Positions 162 to 35,126 of a DNA stretch of 64,000 nucleotides are shown here, piece by piece. The notes under the pieces were generated by a model, which ran no database searches, was not told the DNA's origin, and saw only the letters and a list, made by a program, of their open reading frames with translations. Numbering within the stretch: position 1 is the first letter of the stretch; each line of letters begins with the position of its first letter. Position numbers and translations under genes: made by a program. The stretch lies in the NCBI GenBank assembly GCA_963170055.1, contig CAUJGJ010000003.1, positions 2,019,069 through 2,083,068 on the forward strand, given 5' to 3'. The stretch comes from Halisarca cf. caerulea. Its lineage: Eukaryota > Porifera > Demospongiae > Chondrillida > Halisarcidae.

Positions 162-542
162 ATGGCTGTTTTTCAGTTTACTCTGAAAACAGCAATTCGA
201 GGCTACCACGTATATAAGGACGTTTGGACTCCGACAATCGGTGATGAATTTGACTGTAGACAAGAGCCTAACAACGTGGAGGATAGATATGCTGTAGCAG
301 TTTATGGCGACTCAGAAAGCAGTGATGTGCTTGGACACCTCCCAAGAGAAATTTCTCAGGTATCTTTTTTCTTTTTGAAACACGATGGCAGTATCACTGG
401 TAAAGTGACAGGTAAAAGATGCTACTGTCGCCAGAGGGGTGGGATGGAGATTCCATGTGAGTTAACGTACACTGGGAAACGAAAGAACATTCGGAAACTC
501 CAGGACTTCTTTCAAAGGCAACATTTTGCATGCATTGATTGA
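162..542 (+). CDS. small HIRAN-domain protein (transposon cargo)
   Basis: The 126-residue product is almost entirely one HIRAN domain: IRGYHVY near the N-terminus, then the RQEPNNVEDRYAVAVY segment (the family's E-P-x-N-x-x-D-x-x-A-V core), then LGHLPREIS, and a C-terminal strand region ending ELTYTGKRKN. HIRAN domains occur in HLTF and Rad5, where they bind the 3' end of single-stranded DNA, and also stand alone. The ATG at 162 gives MAVFQF directly before the fold; the in-frame ATG at 147 adds five residues and cannot be excluded. No intron is needed. The gene converges on the pogo transposase at 709-2397. The frame is intact, unlike most genes nearby. Role in transposition or DNA-end handling is inference. 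Confidence 0.7.
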   Translation: MAVFQFTLKTAIRGYHVYKDVWTPTIGDEFDCRQEPNNVEDRYAVAVYGDSESSDVLGHLPREISQVSFFFLKHDGSITGKVTGKRCYCRQRGGMEIPCELTYTGKRKNIRKLQDFFQRQHFACID

Positions 543-708
543 TATTGCCAGCCAGGACGACCTGTGACATTATAGGACGTTCAACATTTTTGTTATCATA
601 GTAATTACTGATCAGTTCACAGAAAGTATAATAATGGAAGTAATTAGGCTTACAATATAACACTATACTGAGAAAAACAAATTAATAAAAGATGTTCACA
701 ACACAGTT

Positions 709-2397
709 TTAGTTTTCTACATCTTCGTCTTCTTCATCCTCCTCATCCTCATAATCTTGCTCTTCTTCCTCATCGGTATCTGCAAAGATATCCTCATCTG
801 ATTCACTTTCCTCAGCTGATACTCCATACGGGATGGTAAACTCTGGTAGTTCTTTGGCGCATCGAATTAGATGGTTTTCAGTTCCATCCAGAGCATTGGT
901 AAGGCCACAGACCTTGAATGATTTTGTCACACAGTTCCCCTGGGTACTAAGCAAGGTATTAGCTCTGACAATCCAGTCCACGATGTCATCTTTTGACACT
1001 GATGGTGCACTCGAAGTAGTACTCTGGTTGACATGCTGAACCATGAGATCTTCCCACAACCCTCGGACGATATCCTTGATAGGCTTGTTCAGTGACACGT
1101 CAACAGGCTGCACCTTGCTGGTGCAGCCCCCAGGAATGACAACAACTGTTGTATTCACTTTTGCAAGGGACTGGAGAACTTCATCTGTAAGGTGGGCACG
1201 GAATGAATCGAACACCAGAAGACAGTGTCTGCCCTTCTTGTGGGGTGTAAGGATACTTTTAATCCACTTTCGCATGATCCCTTGATCCATCCATCCCTTA
1301 GCCTGAAAAGTAACCAAAACATCCCTTTCCCTTTGCTTTGTATTTTTGAGAGTTTGTTTGTTTTTGCCCTTGAAAATAACCATGGGTTTTAGCATTTCAC
1401 CCGCAGCTGAACATGACACCACATACGTCACTCGTTTTTTTCCTCCTTTGGTGCCACGAATACGTACTTCCTTGGCACCTTTCCCTGTGACTGTACTTGA
1501 TTGAGGCATGTAAAAGAAAATCGGTGTCTCTTCCATATTGATGATTAAATTGTCAGGGAAGTTGTACTGCTCTCGGAAAGTCTTCACTTCATCAATGAAC
1601 TTCTCCAGTTTTTTTTCAAGGTCTGCTGGAAGCTTCTGCTGGATGGATGTGTGTCTGTGCAGAGATAAGGATTTGCGTCGCATAAACTTTTGTAGCCACC
1701 CATCTGATGCACGGAAGTTGGGATGCTCTGGTGAAATGATAGCCATGGCCTTGCGCTGAATCATTTTCCTCTGCACAGGAAGTTGCAAGTCTCTGGCTTC
1801 TAAAATCCACTGGACAATGAGTTGTTCCATGTCGGCATTGTAACTCAATGGTCGCCCTGCACCTCTGTGGGCATGCTTTCCTTTCTTTGTCAGTTTGGCT
1901 TTATTTCGAGGTAAAGCACTCAAACATTTCCAACCACGTAGAGTTGTTCTTGGGATGCCAAAGTGTTTTGATGTCTGTGCCTCGCTATAAGCCTTCACAT
2001 ACTCGAGCACCTCCAGCTTCTGTCTGAAACTGTATGACGTGTAGACAGTTTTCCTCTTTCGAGAAGCACTTCCTGGTACTACATTAACTGTACCTGATGT
2101 CAAGCTACTACTGGTACTTGAACCTGGGTCAGCCGTGTCTGTAGAGTGGGTAGATGAGTTATAAGACGGCTTGGTACGCGGAACATCTCTTACAAATGGT
2201 AGAGTATCAGTACTTCGACGAACCGGCGTGAAATAATCCACAATAAGCTTCTTCTTTGCCTTTGGCGGATCTTCTTCTCCGTCACTTAGGGTGATAGTAG
2301 GCGGTTCATCATCCCAATCAGGGCCTGGCAGTTCAGCAACAAATTCAACTGAGCTTCCAACAGACACAGGAGAATCTGGACACAATTCTCGATCCAT
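709..2397 (-). CDS. pogo/Tigger-type DDE transposase, intact frame
   Basis: A 562-residue uninterrupted frame with the order expected of pogo transposases. An acidic and Ser/Thr-rich leader includes the PIP-like stretch KKLIVDYF near residue 49. A Psq/Brinker-like helix-turn-helix follows (about 120-157, with HFGIPRTTLRGW), then a CENP-B-type second DNA-binding domain (about 178-248, with SDGWLQKFMRR), a DDE nuclease core, and a Glu/Asp tail. The core shows NMEETP (residues 287-292), LLVFDSFRAH with D397, and VQPVDVSLNKPIK with D433. The first position is usually Asp (NMDET); here it is Glu289, which may impair catalysis. D397 and D433 are 36 apart. Identification is strong; activity is doubtful because of Glu289. 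Confidence 0.9.
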   Translation of the reverse strand: MDRELCPDSPVSVGSSVEFVAELPGPDWDDEPPTITLSDGEEDPPKAKKKLIVDYFTPVRRSTDTLPFVRDVPRTKPSYNSSTHSTDTADPGSSTSSSLTSGTVNVVPGSASRKRKTVYTSYSFRQKLEVLEYVKAYSEAQTSKHFGIPRTTLRGWKCLSALPRNKAKLTKKGKHAHRGAGRPLSYNADMEQLIVQWILEARDLQLPVQRKMIQRKAMAIISPEHPNFRASDGWLQKFMRRKSLSLHRHTSIQQKLPADLEKKLEKFIDEVKTFREQYNFPDNLIINMEETPIFFYMPQSSTVTGKGAKEVRIRGTKGGKKRVTYVVSCSAAGEMLKPMVIFKGKNKQTLKNTKQRERDVLVTFQAKGWMDQGIMRKWIKSILTPHKKGRHCLLVFDSFRAHLTDEVLQSLAKVNTTVVVIPGGCTSKVQPVDVSLNKPIKDIVRGLWEDLMVQHVNQSTTSSAPSVSKDDIVDWIVRANTLLSTQGNCVTKSFKVCGLTNALDGTENHLIRCAKELPEFTIPYGVSAEESESDEDIFADTDEEEEQDYEDEEDEEDEDVEN

Positions 2398-2710
2398 TGG
2401 CTAATTACAGAAACCTGTGATTGCGTTCTTCCAATAATCGGTCAACTATGTTGAACAAGCTATACTCTCGGTATATACTATACGTTCACAAAGAAATGAA
2501 AAGAACAAAGGCAACAAAGAGTCCTTGTCTTGCTGAGCCACGTGCAGCTGCTAGCCGGACGAATAATTAGATTGTTTCCTGTCATGATGAAATTTAGGAG
2601 TAAATTGGAGGAAATTAGAGCGGCTGTAAATCATGATTAGGGTACCTTTGAATGGATTTTTTTTTCCTGACGAAAATTAGAAGTGACGAATTTTTAGAGC
2701 GGATACGGTA

Positions 2711-26600: not shown

Positions 26601-26879
26601 TCATTATTAGATTAATTATATATCCAGGGCCGTGGCACCCACTCCGGCAGGTCCAGCCATGGCCGGACCGGTTTTTGGCTAAGCACTTAAAAATTGGAAA
26701 AAGAAGAGCTGGCATTTTACACATTTTGCATAGAATGGGGTATACATAGAAATACTGACCACACCAATATTCATTTACATCGGGTTTCCCTTTAGGAACC
26801 TGTTTAACAGAGATACGTATCTCACAAAACGAGCCGAAAAATCCTAACGTCAGCGAAGCGCGACTAAAGAAGCTGTTTC

Positions 26880-27138
26880 AATGTTGTACGCATGCAAGAA
26901 AAATGGCTTTTTGATTTTCCTGTAAAAAGCGTACGATTCGTTGAAAACTGTTTATCAGCTACCAATTTCCCTAATATTGGTAAAACAGCTTATGAATCTA
27001 AAGATTGTAGTTTTCCTATGCAGGAATTTGGTAAAACTAAACCTGTTCAGAGATCTCAATTCTGTGGTTTTCTAATAGTGTGTTTTGGCTGTATTGTGAT
27101 AGTACTCGTGGGCTATATGTGTGTGTATTATATATATA
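26880..27138. other. nothing recognised
   Basis: Interior of the CAGGGCCGT element left of the HIRAN transposon. A short open frame at 26892-27155 has no recognisable domain. Confidence 0.35.
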
Positions 27139-27729
27139 CAGTGCTCCAACCCTAAAGGTTCCATTCTTAATAGTATAGGAAAATGGCTTGTTCAGCTACA
27201 GGCTGGCTTGAAACATGCGATATTACCCTTCTTTGGGTTTATGGGTATTAATTTTATGAATGATGGGCGTGGCATGAGGTCACGTGATACTGTCTGTGAA
27301 TTAATTAGCCATAATTAAAATCCTGTTTTTAGATCTTATTTGTGTAAGAAATTGTAGATAAGACCCCAAATTCCCAAAAAAGCATTATCTGAACATCTTA
27401 CAACTTCTGCCTGGTCCACATTCTCACATAAACCTCTGGGGGGTAGTTACTAGCAAAAATGTTAAATATTTGCACCAAAAGTGTTTAGATGGGATTTCAC
27501 GATTGCTTGCGAGTTAAGAGCCCCAACGACGTAAGCGAGTACTCGAATAGTTGTGCAATCATTAAATAGTATTCATTGGTTTACCATTATAACTGCTATC
27601 ATAGTACGCTAACGATTAGGCAATGCCAAGAAAAAATTGCGCTTGCGGTAACAATTGTTCACGTCACGTCACATGAAGTCACGTGTTGAATAGCACGTGC
27701 ATATTATTTCGCACCTTGTCGGCGAAGAA

Positions 27730-28560
27730 ATGGATTCTGTCGTGTTGGCTTCTTTTACAACTTGTGCTAAAGGTATCAAGTTTTACGATGTTTCGCTGCG
27801 GTCTTTAGTTCCAGGGATCAGTGTAATTCTCCGGAGACAGCCAAGTCGTTTTGATGCTAACGCTGTCGGTCTTATACTGCCATTAAGAGGATTCGCTTTC
27901 TTAGGACACCTGGACAAACAAGCAGCACATTTTGTAACAAAAGTGTTATCAAGTCCGAGATGGGAGACGAAAGCGTGAGTTATTCCTATCCAAATTTATT
28001 AGAAAACTTTTTGTGCACTTGTGAGATTTTGTTGCAGGTCCGTGTCTTCGCGGGAATATGCCTTGGGTGGACGTAGGCAGTGGGGTCAGCGAGTATGCGA
28101 CCTCAGCATCAGAGTAGAAGGTCCATCTTCCTCCTTGTGTCTACTGCGAAGAATTCTAGAACCAGCTGTTCATGTTTTACGGGATTTAGAGGTATGAAAT
28201 AGCTGTTGTTAGAAGTTTCACTTCACGGGTAACTGGTTGTGTGTTACATTCCTACAGTTCTGGCAAACACCAGAGAGTAGCAGTGACTCAGATGTGAGCA
28301 GCACAGCTAGCACAGTGACTATAGAGGACCAAACACCACGTCCTCCAGATGATGTACGTGTGCTGGTCAGGTCTACGCCAGGGAACAATGTGGAGGCGCT
28401 CTCAGACACTGAAACATTGTCAGACAGCAGCACAGAGACACTGTTGAGTAGGAGCACGGGGACACTGTCGGACAGCAGCACAGCGACACTGTCAGACAGC
28501 AGCACGGAAACACTGTCTGACAGCAGCACAGAGACACTTTCAGGCAACGAGACATGTTAA
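27730..28560 (+). CDS. three-exon HIRAN-domain protein, transposon cargo
   Basis: Exons 27730-27974, 28038-28191 and 28258-28560, with GT-AG introns of 63 and 66 bases. Exon 1 encodes the HIRAN core: KGIKFYDVSLRSLVPG, RRQPSRFDANAVGLILP and FAFLGHLDKQAAHFV, matching the family's R-x-P-x-N/D-x-x-D-A-N/A-A-V and LGHL elements. Exon 2 finishes the fold (RVCDLSIRVEG) and adds a helical stretch ending VLRDLE. Exon 3 is a Ser/Thr-rich tail with at least five copies of an 8-residue unit (TETLSDSS), encoded by 24-base tandem repeats. An upstream ATG at 27697 is in frame; 27730 places MDSVVLASF like the MAVFQF start of the gene at 162. All splice junctions keep frame. The HIRAN fold is clear; cellular role unknown. 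Confidence 0.75.
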
Positions 28561-28671
28561 TTGTAAGTAAATGTACATTTTCATTGATATACACGTCTGT
28601 GAGATTGGTATGTTTTCACAACACAGTCAATGTCAAAAGCACAATGTCCCTCCCTATACCCCTTTTCGTAA

Positions 28672-30363
28672 TCATAAACAGTCAAAAAAAAATTTCTTGA
28701 TTAGACTTGCATCCACCGAGTTAAGTGACTCAGGCACTAACTTTCGCAGTCGCACTATAGTTCCATTGGTGTACTTAAGTACCTTCTTTTTGGCATCACA
28801 CCATGCCCTCTCTATAGGGTTTAATTCACAGTGGAATTTTGGTATAAAAATACATTTGTGACCTTTCTCTTCCACCAATTTCTGCACTATAGGTTTCTCA
28901 TTCAGAAAATCCTGATGTGATGCCAACTCCTCCCGCATCTGTTTTGCAGTCCAGCCACTTGTATCAATGCCACGTTCTTTAAGAACAATTTTCATTCCCT
29001 TTGGTTGACCATCTGGGAGGATGAGGCTCTGTATTTCTCCTTGCCAAATAGTATCTCTCATCTTCATCTGTTTTCCACCTGGACCCACATTCATTGAATT
29101 GACGTTCAGTGCATCACTTGATAATTTCCTGTGTGAGGGGGTATTGTCAAATAGAAAGATGGCTTGGACACCAGGATACTTTGCCTCAAAGATGTCAATG
29201 GCTTTCTCCACTTGTACCACAAATTGTTCATTGGTGAAATATCCATCTTTTTGATGCTCCAACATTTTTCTAGCTTCCATTGCATCAATTTTCAGATAGC
29301 CATTGACCTCATCGATGAAATCCGACACCATGATGGCTTGTCCTATTGATTTCTGCCGTAAAACTGTGTTTGTGCCATCGTTCCAATAGGATGACTGCTG
29401 TGCATTAGCATAAAAGGTGCTTTCATCGTGGTAGACACGGATTGTCGGGCGCTCTTCCTCATTCAAGACATTTTGGCAGCCGTAACGTCTTTGATCAACA
29501 TCATCAAGAATGTCCAAGTTATTCATTCCTGGCAGACACAACATCGTCTCGCTCATGGCCATCAAAATAGACTCCTTTCCCTGTGCTCTTTTGTTTGAAT
29601 CCTAACTTTAGGAGCCATTGCTGAGCTGTCTCTTCATGTACCTCATGACCCCAAGTATGTGCCACCCAATCTGCAAAGGACTTGCAGGTCATATTTGGTG
29701 ACCCTTTTTTGTTGGCATTCAACTGTACGTACTCTCGTGCCTCATTTTGAAACTCGACACATGCAAACAATGACACAGTTTTGACGTGGTTTCCTCGTAA
29801 GCTAGACATCAAATCCTGAAGTACATCCCCATCTATTGGGCATGACTGGCTAACTTCCAGGAATTCTGTTGTCCAGTTTCGTACAGTTCTGGAACTTACA
29901 CCTGTGATTTCAGCACTCAAATCTGCTGCTTGGAGGATTCCCATGCCAGTCTTGTGTGCTTGTATAAATGTATGTATTGCCAAAGCCTTTCTTGTTTCAG
30001 TTGTCAACCTCCTTTCAACAAACACTGCTAGGGTCTCAGTAGTTCCACTGTTTGTTTTTTTCAGTAGCGTGTTAAGTGTTGGGTTGGTTGGCTCACTGTG
30101 GCTTGTATTTTTCTTTATAATTCTCTGATTTTGACAGCTTTCTGAGGGTTACCTCTAGGCTGTTTTGTTGCAAAGGATGCAGTACTTTCAGAGAGCTTCA
30201 CATTTGCTTGCACAGATGATTCTCTCTTTGCAGGTAGCTGTCCTGTGATCTGGACTTCGGACAGGACCGCATGAATACCCCTCTTCCGTCGTTTGGTGTT
30301 TAAAAACACCGTTTTTTGGTGTTCAGAAACACCGTTGTTCAAAAAATTGCTAGCATTCTCCAT
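28672..30363 (-). pseudogene. DDE transposase (Tc1/mariner-group-like), frameshifted
   Basis: Three frames on the minus strand. 30363-30115 gives a basic leader (NTKRRKRGIHAVLSEVQITG). 30090-29519 gives an HTH-containing region (GILQAADLSAEITGVSSRTV then RNWTTEFLEV) ending GVYFDGHERDDVV. 29565-28672 gives the catalytic part: IRVYHDESTFYANAQ (first Asp), AIFLFDNTPSHRKLSSDALN (second Asp), MNVGPGGKQMKMRDT, QPKGMKIVLKERGI, and CIFIPKFHCELNPIERAWCD (Glu). The 29519/29565 junction needs a one-base change; the leader junction could be an intron or a frameshift. Similar proteins with HDESTF, FDN.SNH and FHCELN motifs are widespread in fungi and invertebrates as DDE superfamily endonucleases. Confidence 0.8.
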
Positions 30364-31239
30364 CGCTGTATTCTCCCGTACAATCCATCGAAACTCCCGC
30401 TTCCAAAATATTATTGGTCACATGCTGACATGTGATCACGAACGTCATTCATTACAAATAACTGATTTCGCCTATTCTTCAGTATGCGATTTTCGAGAAA
30501 ACTCGCGAAGAGTAATCGAAGGCTCGTATTCATCAGCGAAGACCGGTTTTATAGAATTGAGCTCATTTGTAGGAGAAAGAGGAAGTTTGAAACGATCTAT
30601 ATGTTGTTTCCCGAAGGTGGAACCTTTAGGATTGGAGCACTGTATATATATTATGCATAGATATGGCCGGACTGGTTTTCAGATGCTTCCTACGGCCCTG
30701 AATATCACATTAATTAATATTAGATTATATTACATATCACTTATCGTTTATTATTAGAAGTGAGTTGGCCTTTTGTCAAGCTTTTAGTGCTCTACATTAA
30801 AGTTGAATTTTAGCTATCCAAGATTATAGGGGGACGCAGTACCCCCCTATATATATATATATAGTAGGCATCACAAAAAGCTTTACGTATTGTAAATACA
30901 GTACGGCAGAATAACGAATTTATAACGCCGTTATTACAGAGCAATAACAGATCGTCGATTGAGAACTACAGCTCAGGGTACAAGTCAGCTACAGACGAAC
31001 TACAGATAAACTACGAGAATTGTAACAAACGAACTACGATTGTAGTACAAAATGGTAGGAACAATAAACTACAGCCGTTCAATCCTTAAGCCTGGCTCAC
31101 AATATTGCGCTTCCATGTGCAGTTATGATAGCAGCTGGTCCGTTCGCGTCTATCGCTCTACATCGATTTTTTTCTTAAAGTTTCAAAGCGCCTTTCAACG
31201 ACAGTTTACTACGATGACGGCAAGAACTGTATAAAATAC

Positions 31240-33833: not shown

Positions 33834-35126
33834 TACAATGTCGTCATCAGTCATCTCTTGTGTGGTAATTATCTCTTCATCCACTGCAACGAAATCCTCA
33901 AAGTCTACACCTTGTGGCATAGCACAATCTGTGATGGTAGTTTCTACTTCCAAATCACCTGGTGTTAATTTGTGTGGCCATGGGACAGGTGTCATTGCTG
34001 GGGATCTTAAAGCCTGAGTGCTGAAAACAATTGGCAATAGTCTGCTCGCTGACCTTATCCCATGCTACTTGAAGGATACGAAGTGCATCCAACACATTGA
34101 CTGAAAATCCTTCATTTTTGTCTATTGCCATTACCCTTTTCTGCAAAAGGATATGCCGATAGTGCACTTTTAGATTTCGAATTATTCCCTGGTCACTTGG
34201 CTGCAGTAGAGATGTAGTATTGGGTGGCAAAAACACAAGCTTGATGGCTTGAAGCTGTGCTTGAAGATTTGGATGTGCAGGGCAATTATCCACTACCATT
34301 GCCACCTTTCGTCTATTAGACTGAAACTTTCTGTCAAGTTTCAGGAGCCACGTGGTGAAAATATCTGACTTCATCCAGGCTTTCTTATTGGCTTCATAGT
34401 GTACAGGCAAAGTTTGCACACCATTGAAGCATCTGGGTTTAGCAAATTTACCTATGACTAACAATGGAAGTTTATCATTTCCACTCATATTGGCAGCCAC
34501 AAGCACAGTCAATCGCTCCTTGCTGAGCTTGCCTCCTTTGCATGCATCTCCTTTCATCGCAAATGTTTTCTCTGGTGGGCATTTGTAAAACAGCCCAGTT
34601 TCATCAGCATTGTATATGTTGTCAGAGGTAAATTCAGATAGCAGAGAAGGAAGGCTACTGAGGTCCATTCATGGGTTATTGCACTTGTTACAGTGCTGGA
34701 TTCTCCAACAATATGCTTGAATTTTATTCCATGTCTGCTTTTGAAACGTTCTAGCCACCCAGAGCTACATTTGAAATCACTGCACCCAAGTTTTTGTGCC
34801 AGTGAGTCTGCTTTTTCCAAGAGAATTGGTCCACTAAGTGGAACATTCATACTCCTTGCTTGTCCTATCCATCTCACCAGCGCTTCCTCTACGTTTTCGA
34901 ACGCTGCTGCCCTTAAGCGTTTTCGCTGCGGATCGAACTTCGATTGCTCGAAAGCGTCCTTGGTTTTTTCCTTATTCTTTATTATAGTGGACGAAGTAGT
35001 CTTAGGTATGCCAAAATCCTGAGCGATTTGTGTCTTAGTTCTGGTCTTTTCGCGATCGTTCTTCTCTACAGCTGCTATAATTTCCAATTTCTTAGACAAG
35101 GTTAGAGCAGATTGCTTGCTAGCCAT
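33834..35126 (-). pseudogene. pogo/Tigger transposase, main part
   Basis: Starts MASKQSALTLSKKLEIIAAV. It encodes a CENP-B-type HTH (KTQIAQDFGIPKTTSSTI), the second CENP-B DNA-binding domain (ENVEEALVRWIGQARSMNVP and SSGWLERFKSRHGI), then the DDE core: DNIYNADETGLFYKCPPEKT (first Asp), KVAMVVDNCPAHPNLQ (second Asp) and TTSLLQPSDQGIIRNLKVHY (third Asp). All three catalytic Asp are present. Frameshifts at about 34670 and about 34005. The acidic tail ends TQEMTDDDIV at 33835, where the LINE lies; the C-terminus is at 32990-33235. Confidence 0.9.

Follow-up and report, generated by a model that had tools for sequence, protein, structure and literature searches.

A HIRAN-domain gene carried as standard cargo by two lineages of IS630-Tc1-mariner transposons in the genome of the sponge Halisarca cf. 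caerulea

Tc1/mariner-type transposons are supposed to be one-gene elements. Here, we describe a transposon at positions 27139-30642 of a 64,000-nucleotide stretch of the genome of the demosponge Halisarca cf. caerulea (GenBank assembly GCA_963170055.1, contig CAUJGJ010000003.1, positions 2,019,069 to 2,083,068 of the forward strand; hereafter, the window), which is complete and holds a gene for a HIRAN-domain protein convergent with its transposase gene. The element falls in the IS630-Tc1-mariner (ITm) group of DNA transposons, in which this pairing was unexpected, and it belongs to a stable kind of two-gene transposon that recurs in other families of the same genome. Two lineages of such transposons keep a gene of the replication-fork-repair type as standard equipment, in copies that have moved recently. 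As a whole, the data are best explained if HIRAN is an accessory transposition gene that has long been coinherited with the transposase and most likely acts on 3′ DNA ends, a reading to which we assign a probability of roughly 0.6 from sequence comparison.

A first, sequence-only reading of the window had proposed a complete transposon with inverted ends and TA flanks, enclosing a three-exon HIRAN gene and a convergent DDE transposase gene, and both proposals held up. The first and last 25 bases of the element form an inverted repeat that matches at 24 of 25 positions, similarity stops beyond these 25 bases, and the ends read CAGTG..CACTG. Because the window insertion sits within a (TA)n run, its target duplication is unambiguous only at other copies; the two complete sister copies have the junctions AAAATA/TATGCG (L002) and AGCGTA/TACGCG (L003), with TA duplicated. 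The inverted ends are not a chance match, since ends of the same kind beside TA bound both of these copies at unrelated sites as well as all the ends seen in three other insertions. Furthermore, the repeat surrounding the window element has a copy without the insertion at C4:1564649, a related empty site. That surrounding repeat, in which the element is nested, has inverted ends of its own (26611-26633 and 30692-30714) and 31 other matching stretches in the genome.

Searching the 194-Mb assembly that contains the window with the element, we found six insertions of the family, all with HIRAN, whole or partial (Table 1). The two complete sister copies differ at 2 of 3,496 bases and lie in unrelated surrounding DNA, indicating that the two-gene unit moved recently, and the matched parts of the family copies are 95-98% alike, again at unrelated sites. 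A genome search with the end sequence, allowing up to 3 mismatches, gave 15 matches; 11 had at most 1 mismatch, and all of these fell in the six insertions. The other four, each with 3 mismatches, were one end of the related C345 family (L023) and three end-like sequences (L020 to L022, at 1501-1523) within 1.5 kb of which no relative of either gene was found and which may be chance matches or remnants. Copies that share these ends and lack HIRAN were not found in the end search, and HIRAN, present at least in part in 6/6 insertions and in a conserved position, is standard cargo. Its frame is intact in L001 to L004 and frameshifted in L005, and the second C369 copy retains only part of it. L002 and L003 each have one uninterrupted transposase frame of 610 codons; the transposase gene is broken in the window copy and in the second C369 copy and split by other DNA in L005. 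The intact HIRAN frame beside a broken transposase had been taken as a possible sign of selection on the cargo of this particular copy, which did not survive the comparison: because either gene is broken in different copies, the asymmetry of the window copy is ordinary decay. One copy (L003, at C281) adjoins a further HIRAN match on the same strand, 1.9 kb away (834-1004), and may have landed beside or in another HIRAN element.

The HIRAN gene runs from an ATG at 27730 to 28560 and encodes 233 amino acids in three exons. Taken alone, it matches the Pfam HIRAN family (PF08797) at an E value of 0.023 and 14.9 bits, below the gathering cutoff of 24.7. We assign it to HIRAN because relatives at 30-49% identity pass that cutoff, namely, the C345 relative (49% identity across 74 exon 1 residues) and a HIRAN family at C226, C301, C452, and C369 (about 38% identical by tblastn and 30% in the alignment). 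A structure model of exon 1 has low confidence (predicted local distance difference test score of 69.5), and the first 13 PDB rows matched to it are all HLTF HIRAN or lp_0118, which has the same fold, at E values of 0.08-0.23. The residues with which HLTF binds 3′ ends include R71 and N90/N91; read from the alignment, K17 stands at the position of R71 and F41 at that of Y93, D42 and H60 are kept, and N90/N91 are not. The splicing pattern is corroborated by comparison: the C345 copy shares both intron positions and likewise ends in an S/T/E/D-rich tail, the reading frame of an intronless relative (L042) runs across junction 1, and in a database fragment (P0121), exons 2 and 3 are fused precisely where predicted, with the end of intron 1 retained. 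Given that L001 to L005, the five genomic copies covering this junction, all contain the second intron and that the joined sequence occurs in none of the 81 loci examined, we infer from the intron pattern that P0121 derives from RNA, as a partly spliced transcript. A protein-database search with the full HIRAN protein returned one fragment among 8,000 candidates, probably because it was crowded by the repetitive tail; a search with an alignment (A4) returned 247 matches, the best 120 of which were listed, without genomic context.

The transposase matches DDE_3 (E value, 2.6e-9) above the Pfam cutoff and the NCBIfam IS630 family at 2.6e-14 and 53 bits, under its cutoff of 100. Its sole PDB match is Sleeping Beauty (E value, 0.015), and its N-terminal matches to HTH_33 (6.2e-5) and HTH_Tnp_Tc3_2 (9.7e-4) are both under the Pfam cutoffs. 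D330, D423, and E535 are invariant in a 17-row alignment (A3), with 111 residues between D423 and E535, and the signature is therefore DD111E. The DDE_3/IS630-like transposase, inverted ends, and TA target are shared with Tc1/mariner and IS630 elements; however, Tc1/mariner elements typically carry a transposase only (PMC12242761), whereas a second, spliced gene is standard in the window family. Sailor elements (DD82E) have a D-to-E spacer of 78-111 residues, into which the DD111E signature fits, but they show predominantly a TATA duplication and ends that are usually GT/CC (PMC8533490). Membership in Sailor was rejected, as the window element has a TA duplication and CAGTG..CACTG ends.

Beyond the family, a genome protein search with the transposase gave 73 matches that merged to 59 loci; the best 72 of 102 candidates were scored, making the counts lower bounds. 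A HIRAN gene lies convergent within 6 kb at 17 of the 59 loci, at 0.36-0.66 kb in 16 cases and at 4.8 kb in one. In six families (the window element's own, C226/C301, C345, C40, and the pogo-type C124 and C412), the two genes lie between matching terminal inverted repeats, each next to TA, and the ends of the C226/C301, C345, and C40 families all begin CAGTGC. In a tree of the catalytic half of the transposase, a branch with a support of 1.000 separates 11 HIRAN-bearing rows from four database relatives and all 12 of the HIRAN-less loci that were included (12 of 42). The HIRAN-bearing side has nine further rows, eight in which HIRAN was not checkable and one database protein (P0024) with HIRAN at residues 29-97 (Pfam, 2e-4, under the cutoff) and DDE_3 in a single predicted protein; the P0024 transposase branches apart from all copies of this genome.

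The sequence-only reading saw one HIRAN element; that element stands, and the scale goes beyond it, as a second transposase lineage also carries HIRAN and has one element at the very start of the same window. In this element, the transposase matches DDE_1 and HTH_Tnp_Tc5 above the Pfam cutoffs and CENP-B_N below, and the predicted fold of the HIRAN protein is that of HLTF HIRAN, with modeled matches to both HLTF and Rad5. The element (window 162-2708) has another copy at C412:3893430, and across 296 residues, the two transposases are 97.6% alike. In the C124 and C412 copies, both genes lie between ends of the CCGTA or CCATA type, each next to TA. The lineage is of the pogo type and shares with pogo/Tigger its DDE_1 and CENP-B/Tc5-type DNA-binding domains and TA target but differs in the added convergent HIRAN gene, which at times extends into an Ulp1-like region.

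Genome-wide, we counted 129 HIRAN matches at an E value of 10 or better and scored 150 of 437 DDE_1 candidates, so that these counts are also lower bounds. HIRAN and DDE_1 pair within 3 kb 29 times (28 distinct HIRAN loci), compared to 0.65 expected under even placement, and a chance neighborhood of HIRAN and transposases is rejected; 23 pairs are convergent, 5 are divergent, and 1 is on the same strand. Of the best 30 HIRAN loci, examined together with their 1.5-kb flanks, 29 have a neighboring transposase gene on the opposite strand (27 convergent and 2 divergent [L031 and L053]; none at L046), although these loci are not independent, with L048 to L051 and L042 to L044/L047 being near-identical. 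Overall, a transposase was found for 53 of the 129 HIRAN loci. The divergent pairs at L031 and L053 involve a CENP-B-type DDE_1 transposase and possibly form a third group. At L025 (718-1755, − strand), L032 (1402-2598, + strand), and L033, HIRAN proteins of 346-399 residues extend into an Ulp1-like (C48) cysteine protease region. Near L046 (2135-2800, − strand), where HIRAN has no nearby transposase, an open reading frame on the opposite strand has a C48 protease match above the cutoff and weak PHD-finger matches.

Selection was assessed from Nei-Gojobori counts. Whether the ratio of nonsynonymous to synonymous change (omega) is below 1 for HIRAN had been set as a check by the sequence-only reading, and low ratios were found both within the family and in the diverged pairs between families. 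In exons 1 and 2 of the window family, omega is 0.13-0.22 in 3/3 pairs, which share copies (p = 0.008-0.021). Outside the family, 5 of 11 pairs, which share sequences, show far less nonsynonymous than synonymous change (p of 9e-13 or lower), and the synonymous sites of those five diverged pairs are saturated or nearly so. These counts show purifying selection on HIRAN between families. With the near-duplicate L037 omitted, HIRAN identity tracks transposase identity across 18 families (rho, 0.83; permutation p, 0.0002), among the 15 pogo-type families (rho, 0.68), and among the 13 convergent pogo-type families (rho, 0.46; p, 0.004). This codivergence implies an old association that did not arise anew through repeated random captures. 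A recent single capture was rejected on the same codivergence and on the introns conserved in C345.

Several results weigh against HIRAN as a long-coinherited accessory gene acting on 3′ ends. HIRAN was undetected within 6 kb at 42 of the 59 related transposase loci, and 76 of the 129 HIRAN loci are so far without a transposase, partly as 150 of 437 DDE_1 candidates were scored, and do not count as negatives. In the remaining 6 of the 11 outside-family pairs, the sequences are close, with few changes, and constraint is not significant; in one pair (L037/L048), omega is 1.09 for HIRAN and 0.16 for the transposase. The aligned proteins have K, M, R, or H at the position of HLTF R71, and P0024, read by eye, has A; with this variability, end binding may differ from that of HLTF.

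Conservation inside a mobile unit nonetheless strongly suggests that HIRAN serves transposition, and on the sequence data, it is very probably accessory cargo in the element's service. How it would do so is far less certain. The HIRAN domain of HLTF is reported to recognize 3′ ends (R71E), and by analogy, we propose tentatively that the transposon protein also acts through 3′ DNA ends, with any single outcome being more tentative still. Under the accessory-gene reading, the transposase would cut and paste the element at TA, and the HIRAN protein would bind free 3′ ends, either the overhangs of the excised element and donor gap or the 3′ ends at replication forks. Such binding could steer repair or target choice or exclude host factors of the HLTF/Rad5 type.

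The last of these outcomes is the basis of a rival reading, possible but not favored, in which HIRAN would compete with host HLTF/Rad5 for 3′ ends where forks have stalled and, by preventing fork reversal or the modification of PCNA, would favor copying or repair of the element. HLTF and Rad5 share a GH motif, an invariant Asp, and the fold, as predicted for the second window element, with the transposon proteins but also carry SNF2 and RING parts, which the transposon proteins read here lack; a HIRAN protein of this kind could plausibly compete. The fold match to HLTF and Rad5 is consistent with competition, as are those pogo-type proteins that end in the Ulp1-like (C48) region, a possible editor of SUMO-like marks on forks, whereas the inconstant key residue of HLTF argues against it. 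A host HLTF gene was not found in the genome; the one candidate examined (L076) lacked a readable 150-residue frame.

Cleavage of the Tc1/mariner type leaves both the excised element and the donor gap with short 3′ overhangs, which are the type of ligand that HIRAN binds. HIRAN could bind them and channel the donor gap toward closure or the element ends toward synapsis, a role that is somewhat doubtful: it would explain why two ITm lineages have HIRAN in common, but HIRAN-less relatives exist. Broader and more speculative is the view that these elements form a eukaryotic guild with its own 3′-end reader, in which HIRAN, alone or with the Ulp1-like region, might couple two ITm lineages to forks or excision ends as a counterpart of TnsE and an antagonist of HLTF/Rad5; if so, the HIRAN copy number in such genomes would be a trait of transposons and not of repair. 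The accessory protein TnsE of Tn7 recognizes 3′ ends at forks, and its likeness to HIRAN is confined to this idea of a fork 3′-end reader, as a functional analogy. A TnsE-like role as target selector, guiding the transposase to fork 3′ ends, seems unlikely; it would suit both the 3′-end reading of HLTF HIRAN and the retention of a separate gene with two different transposases, but accessory proteins are typically missing from Tc1/mariner elements (PMC12242761).

Very unlikely is that HIRAN is a passenger, a piece of a host HIRAN gene captured by chance and hitchhiking. The HIRAN-less transposase relatives, the near-identical HIRAN pairs without clear constraint, and the broken HIRAN in 2/6 family insertions would fit a passenger, but its place and orientation are conserved across families, its introns and tail are conserved in C345, it codiverges with the transposase, synonymous but not nonsynonymous sites are saturated between families, and the same layout occurs in a second transposase lineage. 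Least probable, and rejected for the window copy, is the suggestion of the sequence-only reading that this HIRAN was adopted by the host while the transposase decays, to which nothing points apart from the intact HIRAN and broken transposase frames of this copy: both genes are intact in L002 and L003, HIRAN is broken in L005, copies with matched parts 95-98% alike sit at unrelated sites, and a genome search with this HIRAN met transposon copies, relatives, and weak low-complexity matches but no single, separate, conserved host locus.

The accessory-gene reading has a precedent among known systems. Tc1/mariner-type elements typically have one gene, and the Oxytricha TBE elements are an exception, in which a Tc1/mariner transposase is accompanied by accessory genes under purifying selection, as here; in TBE, one accessory gene encodes a zinc-finger/kinase protein and another a protein with no predicted domain, and HIRAN is not named in the available part of that source (PMC12242761). 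No publication on a HIRAN-carrying transposon was found in a literature search covering titles and the openings of abstracts, with Repbase and Dfam outside the search. With the two-gene elements, one can test if simple transposons of the cut-and-paste type manipulate the reversal of forks, the repair of ends, or the choice of target, and they provide a natural library of diverged HIRAN domains. They also carry a warning, as expansions of HIRAN or Ulp1-like families in genome annotations may be transposon cargo.

TABLE 1 Features of the two HIRAN-carrying elements in the window and copies of the first element in the genome
Feature	Position	Strand	Basis or remark
Second element, HIRAN gene, single exon, 126 aa	162..542	+	Pfam HIRAN 29.4 bits, above cutoff
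Second element, pogo-type transposase, convergent with HIRAN	733..2397	-	DDE_1 1.6e-28, HTH_Tnp_Tc5 6.7e-13
Second element, right inverted end	2683..2708	-	Fits terminal inverted repeat pair of C412 copy; left end precedes window
TA target-site duplication, left	27137..27138	.	Sequence; TA also at ends of other copies
Left terminal inverted repeat, CAGTGCTCCAACCCTAAAGGTTCCA	27139..27163	+	Matching ends at other copies
HIRAN exon 1, most of HIRAN domain	27730..27974	+	Gene model, Pfam, alignment, low-confidence structure model
HIRAN intron 1, GT..AG	27975..28037	+	Intronless relative L042 continues across junction; C345 intron at same place
HIRAN exon 2, C-terminal part of domain	28038..28191	+	Gene model, alignment
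HIRAN intron 2, GT..AG	28192..28257	+	Missing from database fragment P0121; C345 intron at same place
HIRAN exon 3, acidic S/T/E/D-rich tail and stop	28258..28560	+	Gene model, C345 comparison
Transposase gene	28581..30417	-	Three frames in this copy; D330, D423, E535 (L002 numbering); gene end placed by comparison with L002
Right terminal inverted repeat	30618..30642	-	End comparison
TA target-site duplication, right	30643..30644	.	Sequence
Family copy L001	Window
Family copy L002	C226		Complete
Family copy L003	C281		Complete
Family copy L004	C182		Interrupted by assembly gap, one end seen
Family copy L005/L007	C369		Split by other DNA
Family copy L008/L006 (second C369 copy)	C369		Internal deletion

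Outside the sponge assembly, no relative of either transposase was found in the viral_contigs collection. The genome_contigs collection held a distant match (L055) and what is apparently sponge transposon DNA in a metagenome-assembled genome of a Cycloclasticus symbiont (L054, 4553-4873, − strand); there, the transposase is followed by a convergent S/T/D-rich open reading frame, and the contig ends 389 bases past the transposase, short of where any HIRAN gene would lie. In the window itself, a further DDE_1 transposase match, unpaired with HIRAN, lies at 34024-34521.

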